Source: Arthrobacter sp. UKPF54-2 (GTDB taxonomy: Bacteria; Actinomycetota; Actinomycetes; Actinomycetales; Micrococcaceae). Taken from it: 64,000 bases of DNA. The DNA is taken from the NCBI RefSeq assembly GCF_007858535.1, contig NZ_CP040174.1:1984001-2048000 (forward strand), written 5' to 3'. Position 1 is the stretch's first letter; each line of letters opens with the position of its first letter. Below are positions 16,848 through 51,922 of this stretch, piece after piece. A program made the translations under genes and the position numbers. The notes under the pieces are model-generated. The model was not told where the DNA came from. It searched no databases and saw only the letters and a list, made by a program, of their open reading frames with translations.

Positions 16848-17090
16848 AGTAGGTTGCTTTGCCGTATCGTAGATATTTGCGTCTTCCCTGTTTACCTTCA
16901 GCCTTCATATAGCGGTGGGCTTAGCCTGAGCGCTGCTCCATCAATGTGCCGTCTACAACGTGCACCAGCATGGTCAGTGCGGGTCCCGGGTCATATAGCG
17001 GAACCGGACTGGTAGCACTGCGGAGTCACTTCGCAGGGTGCATAACGGGGGAGATCTGAAAACGCCTGAAGGTCTGTGGAAGGATCCCTC
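16848..17090 (+). other. rpoB leader region with two copies of TCATATAGCGG
   Basis: No convincing gene is present in this leader. The 11-mer TCATATAGCGG occurs at 16905-16915 and 16991-17001, and a third copy lies 24 nt before the rpoA start (51912-51922). Otherwise I see no long hairpin or T-tract. The copies could be promoter parts or a regulator/RNA element. Confidence 0.6.
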
Positions 17091-20000
17091 TTGGTCGCCT
17101 CGAGCACCTCTAATGTAAACAACGCTACCGCTATCAATGCCGACAGCACCGACGGTGCAACCCGCCGGCTCTCCTTCGCAAAGATTCACGAACCGCTTGA
17201 CGTTCCGAATCTGCTTGCCCTGCAAACGGACAGCTTCGACTGGCTGGTCGGAAACGAACGCTGGCAGGCGCGCGTCGCGAAGGCCGTCGAGGAAGGCGAC
17301 CTCAGTGTCGCCACCACGTCGGGCCTGTCTGACATCTTCGAAGAGATCTCCCCGATCGAGGACTTCCAGGGCACCATGTCCCTGAGCTTCTCCGAGCCGG
17401 AGTTCGCTGACCCGAAATACACCATGGCCGAGTGCAAGGACCGGGACGCTACGTACTCCGCTCCGCTGTACGTCAAGGCCGAGTTCATGAACAACAACAC
17501 GGGCGAAATCAAGCAGCAGACCGTGTTCATGGGTGACTTCCCGCTGATGACCGAGAAGGGCACCTTCGTCGTTAACGGCACCGAGCGTGTCGTCGTGTCC
17601 CAGCTGGTCCGGTCCCCGGGCGCCTACTTCGAGCGCACCGCGGACAAGACCAGCGACAAGGACATCTTCACCGCGAAGATCATCCCGTCCCGCGGCGCCT
17701 GGTTCGAACTCGAAATCGACAAGCGCGACCAGGTCGGCGTTCGCCTCGACCGCAAGCGCAAGCAGTCCGTCACCGTGCTGCTGAAGGCCCTCGGCTGGAC
17801 CGAAGGCCAGATCCTCGAGGAATTCGGCCAGTACGACTCCATGCGCGCGACGCTGGAGAAGGACGCCACCGAAACCCGCGAAGACGCCTTGCTGGACATC
17901 TACCGGAAGCTGCGACCGGGCGAGCCGCCCACCGTTGAGGCTGCCCAGTCCCTGCTGGACAACCTGTACTTCAACTCCAAGCGCTACGATCTGGCCAAGG
18001 TCGGCCGGTACAAGATCAACCGCAAGCTTGGCATCGACCGCTCCCTTGGCGACAAGGAAGCTTCGGTCCTGCACGTTGAAGACATCGTTGCCATGATCAA
18101 GTTCCTGGTAGCCCTGCACGCCGGTGAGAAGACCCTCATGGGCAAGCGCGACGGCCAGGACCACGAGCTGCGCGTCGAGATCGACGACATCGACCACTTC
18201 GGCAACCGCCGTATCCGCGCCGTCGGCGAGCTCATCGAGAACCAGGTCCGCACCGGCCTGTCCCGCATGGAGCGCGTTGTCCGCGAGCGTATGACCACCC
18301 AGGACGTCGAGGCGATCACGCCGCAGACCCTGATCAACATCCGCCCCGTCGTGGCAGCGATCAAGGAGTTCTTCGGAACGTCCCAGCTCTCGCAGTTCAT
18401 GGACCAGAACAACCCGCTGTCGGGCCTGACCCACAAGCGCCGCCTGTCCGCGCTGGGCCCGGGCGGTCTGTCCCGTGACCGTGCCGGCATGGAAGTCCGA
18501 GACGTCCACCCGTCCCACTACGGACGTATGTGCCCGATCGAAACCCCTGAAGGCCCGAACATCGGCCTGATCGGTTCGCTGGCATCGTACGGCCGGATCA
18601 ACCCGTTCGGTTTCATCGAGACCCCGTACCGCCTCGTTTCCGAGGGCATCGTTTCCGATGAGGTCCAGTACCTCACCGCCGACGACGAGGCCGAGGTCCT
18701 GATCGCACAGGCCAACGCCCCGCTCGACGAGAACAAGCGTTTCGCCGAAGAGACCGTGCTGGTCCGTGCCCGCGGTGGTGGAGGCGAGCCCGTGCTGGTT
18801 CCCGCCGCCGACGTCGAGTTCATGGACGTCTCCCCGCGCCAGATGGTGTCCGTGGCGACCGCCCTGATCCCGTTCCTCGAGCATGACGATGCCAACCGTG
18901 CACTCATGGGTGCCAACATGCAGCGCCAGGCTGTGCCGCTGGTCCGCTCCGAGGCGCCGTTCGTCGGCACCGGCATGGAGCGCGCCGCCGCCGTCGACGC
19001 CGGTGACGTTGTCATCGCGAAGAAGGCCGGTGTGGTCACCGAGGTTTCCGCCGAGCTCGTCATCATGCTCAACGACGACGGCACCGAAACCAACTACCGG
19101 ATCAACAAGTTCGCCCGCTCCAACCAGGGCAACTGCTACAACCACCGTGTCCTGGTGAACGAAGGCCAGCGCCTGGAAGTCGGCGGCATCATCGCCGACG
19201 GCCCGGCAACGGACCAGGGCGAGCTCGCCCTCGGTAAGAACCTGCTCGTGGCATTCATGTCCTGGGAAGGCCACAACTTCGAGGATGCCATCATCCTGTC
19301 CCAGCGGATCGTGGCCGAGGACGTCCTGTCCTCGATCCACATCGAGGAGCACGAGATCGATGCCCGCGACACCAAGCTTGGTGCCGAGGAAATCACCCGT
19401 GACATCCCGAACGTGTCCGAGGAAGTCCTGGCAGGCCTGGACGAGCGCGGCATCATCCACATCGGTGCCGAGGTTGAAGCCGGCGACATCCTGGTCGGCA
19501 AGGTCACCCCCAAGGGCGAGACCGAGCTGACCCCGGAAGAGCGCCTGCTGCGCGCCATCTTCGGCGAGAAGTCCCGCGAAGTGCGCGACACCTCCCTGAA
19601 GGTGCCCCACGGCGAGTCCGGCACCGTGATCGGTGTCCGCGTCTTCGACCGCGACAACGACGACGAGCTGCCCCCGGGCGTCAACCAGCTGGTCCGCGTC
19701 TACGTGGCTGCCAAGCGCAAGATCACCGACGGCGACAAGCTCGCCGGCCGTCACGGCAACAAGGGTGTTATCTCCAAGATCCTTCCCGTGGAGGACATGC
19801 CCTTCCTTGCCGACGGCACCCCCGTTGATATTGTCCTGAACCCGCTGGGTGTTCCGGGCCGTATGAACGTCGGCCAGGTGCTCGAAACGCACCTCGGCTG
19901 GGTTGCCAAGACCGGCTGGAAGATCGAGGGCGAGCCCGAGTGGGTCAAGCAGCTGCCGAACCTGCCGCGCGAAAGTGGCCAGACCACTGTCGCCACGCCG

Positions 20001-20606
20001 GTCTTCGACGGTGCGCGTGAAGAGGAAATCACGGGCCTGCTCGACTCCACCAACGTCACCCGCGACGGGGACCGCCTGATCAACTCCTCGGGCAAGACCC
20101 GCCTGTTTGACGGCCGCTCCGGCGAGCCGTTCCCGGATCCGATCTCGGTCGGCTACATGTACATCCTGAAGCTCCACCACCTGGTGGACGACAAGATCCA
20201 CGCGCGCTCCACCGGCCCGTACTCCATGATCACGCAGCAGCCGCTGGGTGGTAAGGCGCAGTTCGGTGGCCAGCGCTTCGGTGAAATGGAAGTGTGGGCG
20301 CTCGAAGCCTATGGCGCGGCCTACACGCTCCAGGAACTCCTCACGATCAAGTCGGATGACATCCACGGTCGTGTGAAGGTCTACGAAGCCATCGTCAAGG
20401 GCGAGAACATCCCGGAGCCGGGCGTTCCTGAGTCCTTCAAGGTCTTGATCAAGGAAATGCAGTCGCTGTGCCTGAACGTGGAAGTTCTTTCCACGGACGG
20501 AACCACAATTGAAATGCGTGACTCTGATGACGCAGTCTTCACGGCTGCGGAAGAACTGGGCATCGATCTGTCTCGTGCAGAGCCCAGTTCCGTAGAAGAG
20601 GTCTAG
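17091..20606 (+). CDS. rpoB: RNA polymerase beta subunit
   Basis: The 1171-residue protein starts at TTG 17091, 6 nt after AAGGA; a GTG at 17076 would place the ribosome site inside the gene. The protein reads [10 protein letters not shown] then [20 protein letters not shown], as in actinobacterial RpoB. The rifampicin pocket ([16 protein letters not shown] then [12 protein letters not shown]) carries the wild-type Asp, His and Ser residues, so no classical rifampicin-resistance change is seen. The catalytic-region motifs ([34 protein letters not shown]) and C-terminal [20 protein letters not shown] are intact. It forms the core enzyme with RpoC, encoded 106 nt downstream. Confidence 0.98.
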
Positions 20607-20712
20607 CAGGTCGGGGTCCGACGGCGGGTCACCACCCGCCGTCGGACGCCACCTCCCTCTTCCCGTAACCCAAGACTTCAGAATTTAGAGAACAAGAGAG
20701 AACAGGGACCAT

Positions 20713-51819: not shown

Positions 51820-51831
51820 TTCTTAGCCGGA

Positions 51832-51863
51832 GCTTGCCCGGACCCTCACCGGTCCGGGCAAGC
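51832..51863 (+). terminator. Hairpin between rpsK and rpoA
   Basis: GCTTGCCCGGACC (51832-51844) and GGTCCGGGCAAGC (51851-51863) pair perfectly with a 6-nt loop. No T-tract follows, so it may be a partial terminator or processing structure adjusting rpoA relative to rpsM-rpsK. Confidence 0.6.
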
Positions 51864-51911
51864 CCAGCCGCGTTAAGTCATTAGACCGATCTTTCCACCA
51901 CCTGTGTTGCG

Positions 51912-51922
51912 TCATATAGCGG
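51912..51922 (+). promoter_or_regulatory. TCATATAGCGG element upstream of rpoA
   Basis: This 11-mer ends 23 nt before the rpoA GTG and is identical to the two copies in the rpoB leader. I saw no other copy in the stretches I read, but could not run an exhaustive count. Function unknown. Confidence 0.5.

Follow-up and report, generated by a model that had tools for sequence, protein, structure and literature searches.

What links the leaders of rpoB and rpoA, the genes for two subunits of RNA polymerase, in the 64,000-nucleotide (nt) stretch of the Arthrobacter sp. UKPF54-2 genome analysed here (NZ_CP040174.1, positions 1,984,001 to 2,048,000; hereafter the window)? A preliminary description of this DNA had pointed to an 11-nt word, TCATATAGCGG, that occurs twice before rpoB and once before rpoA, and had proposed that it marks a shared control element (the site of a regulator, part of a promoter or a signal in the RNA) matching alpha to beta/beta' supply. 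The three copies are exact and lie on the plus strand at 16905-16915, 16991-17001 and 51912-51922; the minus strand of the window has none. As the preliminary description had judged, the word is expected far less than once in 64 kb: counting both strands, a first-order Markov model predicts 0.0038 copies for the window and 0.21 for the entire genome. The distances to the genes also hold. The rpoB-leader copies end 90 and 176 nt 5' of the TTG at 17091, which is the inferred start of that gene, and the third copy lies 23 nt from the rpoA GTG at 51946. The assignment of both genes agrees with their Pfam domains. In the whole genome (one contig of 3,517,818 bp), the word occurs three times, always on the plus strand and always at the rpoB and rpoA sites. 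A reversed-pattern control gave 0 and 0 matches, and the reverse strand has 0 copies of the word itself. No copies are thus scattered through the genome, and relatives have kept the element ahead of their rpoA and rpoB genes, so that the idea of a shared element withstood both tests. As described below, comparison of related sequences indicates that TCATATAGCGG is most of the 12-nt loop of an RNA hairpin and not a DNA word.

Fixed loop and covarying stem

The conserved unit, as predicted from the alignments, is wider than the 11-mer and consists of the 12-nt loop and a pairing stem. The loop has the consensus UCAWAUDGYGGD, derived from 112 distinct sequences. C2 and G11, which are able to pair with each other, are invariant in all aligned copies. 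Rare exceptions to the consensus occur outside the alignments, with A at position 9 (L192, L478 and L480) or U at position 8 (L473). The stem around the loop is free in sequence, has 3-8 pairs or more, and covaries. Its two sides stay complementary while they change, as in AGCCU/GGGCU, CGACCU/GGGUCG, CCGGG/CCCGG, GGACG/CGUCC, GGAGCA/UGCUCC, GAACG/UGUUC and CACGUG/CACGUG.

We measured the covariation in two alignments. The first contains 79 distinct 28-mers from rpoA and rpoB sites, which were selected by loop word and gene and not by stem; 8 of the 87 distinct 28-mers were left out because they lie at other or unassigned places. Over six pairs, 82.1% of the cells are paired and 148 cells have changed on both sides. 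The covariation score is 0.774. Shuffled alignments score 0.219, with none of 500 reaching the observed value, and slid partners reach 0.274 at most. The second, class-wide alignment has 59 rows, of which 26 come from the first and 33 are taken from 40 new ones. It is 90.6% paired and scores 0.660 against 0.187 when shuffled, and it leans towards pairing because the seven excluded rows had stems of fewer than three pairs, counted without bulges; by eye, several of these seven have a bulged or mismatched stem. The element thus shows conserved pairing with compensatory changes and a fixed position upstream of orthologous genes, as a cis-regulatory RNA would. On this comparative evidence, we consider it almost certain that it is a real cis-regulatory RNA hairpin of the RNA polymerase genes.

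Distribution of the hairpin

Two search models were used, the first (R1) on the own genome and 197 genomes of the class, and the second (R2) on genomes of the family, including those without the exact word, and on 276 genomes of the phylum. In the own genome, R1 found the three sites at the scores given in Table 1, and the next match had 15.8 bits. In the family, 114 of 120 genomes (32 genera) contain the exact word in 1-4 copies each. Among the genomes listed, most of these copies share a strand and are spaced by roughly 27-57 kb, which fits rpoB plus rpoA; about 49 distinct contexts were read, which is not every copy. Some exact words in family genomes lie at unrelated places. The 8 of 87 distinct contexts mentioned above include a palindromic site: in two genera (L020 and L052), the exact 11-mer overlaps a palindrome like TATAGCG-N-CGCTATA before a gene. 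A related site lies at position 1318759 (L156) of the own genome; the palindromic sites in the two genera look like the operator of an autoregulator.

The six family genomes without the exact word (G034, G060, G082, G102, G108 and G119) have two R2 hits each with E<1e-3, and the loops in those read are UCAAAUAGCGG or UCAUAUGGCGG. Among the 24 family genomes searched with R2, four of genus g21 (G049, G073, G093 and G110) have a single strong hit each, of the rpoB type. In G093, the g21 genome that was followed up, a diverged copy with the loop UCAAAUGGCGGA lies upstream of rpoA.

At the level of the order, 95 of 99 genomes have a match at E<=0.5, with 120 matches in all: 90 at rpoA, 23 assigned to rpoB (in G002 and G012 by position or loop only) and 7 elsewhere. 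A hit stands at rpoA in 90 of the 98 genomes in which this gene was located. The other eight are seven genomes of one family, f66 (see below), and G456, which has a weak 16.9-bit hit at rpoA by position. Six of the seven matches elsewhere have E values of 0.2-0.45. The seventh, with an E value of 0.004, is a hairpin-like match of 25.8 bits on a 71-kb contig (L214; G032 contig 13, 65054-65081) and apparently does not precede a polymerase gene.

In the class, 128 of the 197 genomes have a match at E<=0.1, and there are 137 matches in total; rpoA was located in 195 genomes. For 105 of these matches, a listed rpoA follows at a distance of no more than 120 nt, six of these rpoA places having come from a separate location step. 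A further 23 matches were checked individually (12 plus 11; the one in G581 from sequence), and all of them precede rpoA, so that all 128 matched genomes carry the hairpin there. The remaining nine comprise five in rpoB leaders (two each in G000 and G009, one in G418), one before a second rpoA (G545) and three elsewhere: in a histidine-kinase-like frame (G559), in an open frame (G641) and at an unassigned place (G570). At this threshold, therefore, 134 of 137 matches are at RNA polymerase genes, to which the element is practically confined. Reading covered 49 of the 69 genomes without a match, and in all 49 a variant hairpin precedes rpoA, distinguished by a bulged stem or by a loop such as UCAAAUAGUGG, UCAAAUGGUGG or UCAAAUUGCGG; the 20 unread genomes include two that had no rpoA match. 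In named genomes, a 20-base pattern found at least 118 stretches, and rpoA follows on the same strand in 113 of the 118 listed. Four of the other five are cut near the end of the locus and have the right sequence, and one is unrelated. The named genera include Streptomyces, Kitasatospora, Mycobacterium, Mycolicibacterium, Nocardia, Corynebacterium, Micromonospora, Glycomyces, Actinomyces, Streptosporangium and Nonomuraea. The predicted hairpin is thus present before rpoA in nearly all sampled members of the class Actinomycetes.

In the phylum search, 62 of the 276 genomes have a match at E<=0.3, and all matches with E<1e-3 are inside the class. We read 15 of the weaker matches, 12 from outside the class and three Streptomyces-like. 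None of the 15 has a polymerase-like translation downstream and several lie in open frames, and we take these 15 as chance. With these 15 read, the phylum search gave no convincing copy outside the class. One exact 20-base pattern had no copy in phage, and the partial matches in plasmids were weak (E about 6 in the rows listed), none covering 80% of the query.

Genes preceded by the hairpin

In addition to the rpoA site, rpoB leaders carry the hairpin in the family of the window (1-2 copies) and in family f67 (7 of 7 sampled genomes). Family f66, whose RpoB we take to be Bifidobacterium-like, has the hairpin before rpoB in six of seven genomes (G491, G443, G455, G417, G467 and G479); in the seventh, G430, none was found. 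The f66 rpoA leaders lack it in all seven genomes (L141, L142 and L447-L451). Five of these leaders (L141 and L448-L451) have another small hairpin just 5' of the Shine-Dalgarno sequence, for example ACCGG-UGAGUGCACCA-CCGGU, with a loop of its own, which is perhaps a replacement element. In five f66 rpoB leaders (L221, L227, L229, L423 and L424), a second, altered copy, GGCATATGGCGGCC, GGCATATAGCGGC or GGCATATGGTGGCC, lies 3' of the hairpin, and G-C replaces the U.D closing bases in it. Two Streptomyces-like genomes (L225 in G140 and L226 in G227) have a second rpoA that is preceded by a decayed hairpin, UCACACAGCGGG or UCACAUAACGGG, which suggests that the second copies have left the control or are losing it. 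As far as sampled, the predicted regulon is RNA polymerase.

These results bear on both parts of the initial proposal. A shared control element is supported, and stem covariation around a fixed loop picks the RNA signal from the three options that were offered; however, the usual place of the element is rpoA, and sites at rpoB supplement it in some families or, in f66, take its place. The element may match alpha to beta/beta' supply, but in most of the sampled class it was found at no gene other than rpoA.

Position in the messages and features of the window

In most of the class, the hairpin lies about 20-29 nt 5' of the rpoA start, with the Shine-Dalgarno box 3' of it. In 101 of 105 genomes, 12-23 nt separate the 28-nt unit from residue 1 or 2, where the rpoA match begins; in the other four, the gap is 57 nt. 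In the named genomes, the loop ends 17-29 nt 5' of the inferred rpoA start in 108 cases, and 41, 67, 107, 110 and 161 nt from it in one case each. The rpoB leaders are built differently. Twelve leaders of the window's family, chosen for containing the word, have as invariant parts the -10 element, TTTGC at the predicted start, the hairpin about 25 nt further on, and the ribosome site; the stretch between the hairpin and the ribosome site is free in length and sequence. Within these 12, TANNNT and the following TTTGC are invariant, as is CCTTCATATAGCGGTGGG of the first hairpin (12 of 12 leaders, all chosen for the word). The predicted hairpin is therefore ribosome-proximal in rpoA and 5'-proximal in rpoB, in three families.

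The features of the window are collected in Table 1. The rpoB transcript is predicted to start near 16877. Because a divergent thiolase gene is the upstream neighbour of rpoB, the gene has its own leader. We infer that it starts with the TTG at 17091, and not with the GTG at 17076 given by the open reading frame program, because of the AAGGA just upstream. The exact copy of the second hairpin occurs in some genera of the family only (variant copies elsewhere were not searched for). Its stem partners change to CCGGG/CCCGG in L023 and to GGA/UCC in L041 and L051. The rpoA gene is preceded by the genes for S13 and S11 and followed by that for L17, and its hairpin stem, of three pairs in the window, has at least eight in some relatives. 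Upstream of this hairpin, the strong stem-loop between rpsK and rpoA may be a partial terminator or a 3'-end stabiliser of the ribosomal message; as a partial terminator, it could separate ribosomal from polymerase expression. By eye, some relatives seem to have similar stem-loops at the same place.

Table 1. Coordinates of the rpoB and rpoA leader features in the window.
Feature	Position	Strand	Basis and remarks
Sigma-A-type promoter of rpoB, TAGACA-17 nt-TATCGT	16842..16870	+	Only promoter-like site found in 16700-17100
Predicted rpoB-leader hairpin 1, AGCCU / loop UCAUAUAGCGGU (16905-16916) / GGGCU	16900..16921	+	Model match 34.1 bits; covarying stem
Predicted rpoB-leader hairpin 2, CCGG G / loop UCAUAUAGCGGA (16991-17002) / A CCGG	16986..17007	+	Model match 31.4 bits; G.A mismatch adjoining the loop
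Shine-Dalgarno sequence of rpoB, AAGGA	17080..17084	+	GGTCTGTGGAAGGATCCCTCTTGGTCGCC region strongly conserved in the 12-leader alignment
rpoB	17091..20606	+	Pfam RNA_pol_Rpb2 domains
Strong stem-loop between rpsK and rpoA	51832..51863	+	Sequence; perfect 13-bp inverted repeat without a T run
Predicted rpoA-leader hairpin, GCG / loop UCAUAUAGCGGA (51912-51923) / UGC	51909..51926	+	Model match 32.5 bits; orthologous hairpin throughout the class
Shine-Dalgarno region of rpoA, GAAAGGAAA	51932..51940	+	Sequence; directly 3' of the hairpin; relatives share the layout
rpoA	51946..52956	+	Pfam RNA_pol_A_bac, RNA_pol_L and RNA_pol_A_CTD

Comparison with known RNA elements

A search of the window with Rfam 15 at the gathering threshold found one tRNA only. 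At E<=10, eight rpoA and rpoB loci gave seven sub-threshold matches, none of them at the hairpin. In the window, a sub-threshold Alpha_RBS match (19.7 bits, cut-off 38, E 0.94) covers 50918-51027, over the start of the S13 gene, and may be due to chance. The S4-controlled site of the alpha operon in E. coli lies at the start of the S13 gene as well.

Leaders of ribosomal protein operons include S4 leaders of alpha operons and an L17 leader reported in Actinobacteria and Proteobacteria (PMC7247131). Like the hairpin, they are structured mRNA sites ahead of a gene in this kind of operon and combine a stem that covaries with a conserved binding face. The targets of the hairpin, in contrast, are RNA polymerase genes in two separate operons. 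Its immediate targets are rpoA and rpoB, and rplQ only follows rpoA, whereas a ribosomal protein leader has a ribosomal target gene whose product is the ligand. The S4 element is also far larger, with 110 positions in the Alpha_RBS model, and the L17 leader is listed for rplQ and not for rpoA (PMC7247131). As to mimicry of rRNA, the loop has a partial likeness to boxC and to a spacer site (below), and the model search of the genome, rRNA included, gave no further site above 15.8 bits.

The rpoBC attenuator of E. coli, with possible autogenous control, and a cyanobacterial rpoBC leader likened to it (PMC1242208, in the portion available) are similar in that a leader controls RNA polymerase genes and feedback has been proposed. 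They differ in concerning rpoBC only and other phyla, and the same portion names no small hairpin shared with rpoA (PMC1242208). If the mechanism favoured below is right, the hairpin would also resemble the RNAs that bind RNA polymerase, namely 6S, Ms1 and those of PMC11077062 (seen in part), in being an RNA read by the polymerase; the main text of that paper contains "rpoB" once and "rpoA" never. A likeness in sequence also exists to sites of the rRNA operons (rrn). There, boxA and boxC are the sites of NusB/S10 and of NusA, and boxC is bound as single-stranded RNA. The core of the hairpin loop resembles boxC with one extra base, but by eye no boxA precedes the rpo hairpins and boxC does not co-vary with the loop. 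In the 16S-23S spacer of each of the three own rRNA operons read (L395, L396 and L397), ATCAACAAATAGCGGCC is a close ungapped loop match (10 of 12), and the same spacers have a boxA/boxC-like TTTGAGAACTACATAGTGG.

We found no description of the hairpin in the open-access literature searched; most subscription papers were outside the search, and absence from print is unproven. An mRNA operator hairpin is a known kind of element. What is new, to our knowledge, is that such a hairpin serves RNA polymerase genes, is common to two operons and has persisted throughout a bacterial class. Given its sequence and distribution, it would seem to be a so far unrecorded switch that controls RNA polymerase synthesis.

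Possible function and alternatives

That the loop is fixed while the stem is free in sequence suggests that a protein reads the hairpin. Because the targets are polymerase genes even where the site stands at rpoB instead of rpoA, the hairpin probably regulates polymerase supply, and feedback by the enzyme or an assembly intermediate would be the simplest logic. Free RNA polymerase core or an assembly intermediate, when in excess, would bind the hairpin loop. At rpoA, the bound reader would crowd the adjacent Shine-Dalgarno site and lower translation, and at rpoBC, where the hairpins are 90-180 nt 5' of the start, it would act on transcription of the leader, on stability or on access. A shortage of either alpha or beta/beta' would cap assembly of the enzyme, which would explain why the element is at rpoA, at both genes or at rpoB only, depending on the lineage. 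This full mechanism, a protein-read RNA operator that sets the synthesis of polymerase subunits with the polymerase or an assembly intermediate as favoured reader, is a tentative proposal about which we remain somewhat more doubtful than convinced. In its most specific form, in which unengaged core or an alpha-containing intermediate reads the hairpin in its own subunit mRNAs, it would be an ancient feedback switch of Actinomycetes, which has been retained at rpoA throughout the class, has gained copies at rpoBC in two sampled families and has moved to rpoBC in another; this we regard as possible, with more reserve.

Several observations weigh against the proposal. None of the three sites in the window has a remarkable folding energy (z 0.41, -1.41 and -0.28), and the rpoA stem of the window has only three pairs. 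Folding of these sites as single sequences was uninformative, and because of the short stem and the energies, the structural case rests on comparison. Family f66 does without the hairpin at rpoA. In most of the sampled class, the hairpin was found at rpoA only (no gene-by-gene search was made for weaker or diverged copies in other rpoB leaders), so that a single sensor for both operons is not general. Crowding is harder to uphold for genus g264, in which four genomes have the 57-nt gap, and the rpoB hairpin is far from the ribosome site, so that one mechanism does not obviously fit both genes.

Another RNA-binding protein may read the hairpin, with NusA as the best-motivated candidate; the polymerase genes would then follow its titration by rRNA synthesis. 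We take the core of its rRNA-leader site, boxC, to be UCAAUAG. The rRNA leader of this genome reads TTTGAGAACTCAATAGTGTG, in which boxC, CUCAAUAGUG, resembles the loop minus one base; a loop profile with column 4 deleted scores 8.4 at this leader, a value reached by 5 of 127,976 window positions on both strands, and the 16S-23S spacer contains AACTACATAGTGGACGC and ATCAACAAATAGCGGCC. However, boxC is one base shorter than the loop, and its core varies (CAATAG, CAACAG, ACACAG, GCACAG and others) among the matches listed for the 197 class genomes, 77 of which have a match. It has C or U where the aligned loops keep U (base 6), loop base 7 varies, and no co-variation is visible by eye. We also found no published source for the NusA site. 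The loop and boxC appear to follow different sequence rules across species, as judged by eye from the matches listed, and a reader of this kind is not favoured and seems unlikely. A role in processing or stability, in which a nuclease or its partner separates rpoA from the ribosomal protein message or trims the rpoBC leader, would suit a hairpin in the rpsK-rpoA gap 3' of a strong stem-loop, and another near the predicted 5' end of the rpoB message. Yet the transcript that holds the rpoB copies has a predicted promoter of its own and nothing to be separated from, the hairpin is hardly found at other operons, and so many fixed loop positions generally exceed the needs of cleavage enzymes; we judge this role about as improbable as NusA.

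A put-like or aptamer-like signal, which binds the transcribing RNA polymerase in cis and alters pausing or termination in the leader, is slightly less probable again. The leaders are probably transcribed, and RNA polymerase binds some structured RNAs, such as 6S and Ms1 (PMC11077062). A purely cis effect, however, need not be confined to polymerase genes, as 134 of the 137 class matches are, and a choice between termination and read-through would have little space so near the rpoA start. As to the RNAs just named, 6S and Ms1 are separate, longer molecules. A fixed loop on a free stem would also be expected of a small-molecule riboswitch or an RNA-RNA kissing site, which we consider very unlikely: the unit of 22-28 nt has no expression platform, and the genome has no complementary 11-mer (0 reverse matches). 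When the four loop variants were scanned for pairing with the own 16S, spacer and partial 23S rRNA, all shared the boxA stretch as best partner, and one scored 22 against 21 for the best of 50 shuffles, but the other three scored 19-20, inside their shuffles (maxima 24-25). Pairing of the loop with rRNA was rejected, being mostly within the shuffles. Least credible of all is a DNA site, either a transcription factor operator or a special promoter element, even though the 11-mer contains TATA and one copy lies 23 nt 5' of rpoA. The flanks covary as base pairs, the rpo sites read have a single orientation relative to the gene, and both rpoB copies are downstream of the conserved sigma-A-type promoter. 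DNA conservation does not extend to the stem, which is free in sequence but paired, and we reject a DNA site because of this covariation.

Implications

The question of how bacteria adjust and balance the production of their RNA polymerase subunits is old and still largely open. Overproduction of RpoA is reported to have global effects in another bacterium (PMC7742992). The hairpin offers a specific candidate control site of 22-28 nt in a class that includes Streptomyces, Mycobacterium, Nocardia and Corynebacterium, and its near-frozen loop may aid the annotation of rpoA starts. As bait, it could be used to find the regulator, which would render feedback on RNA polymerase supply directly testable.

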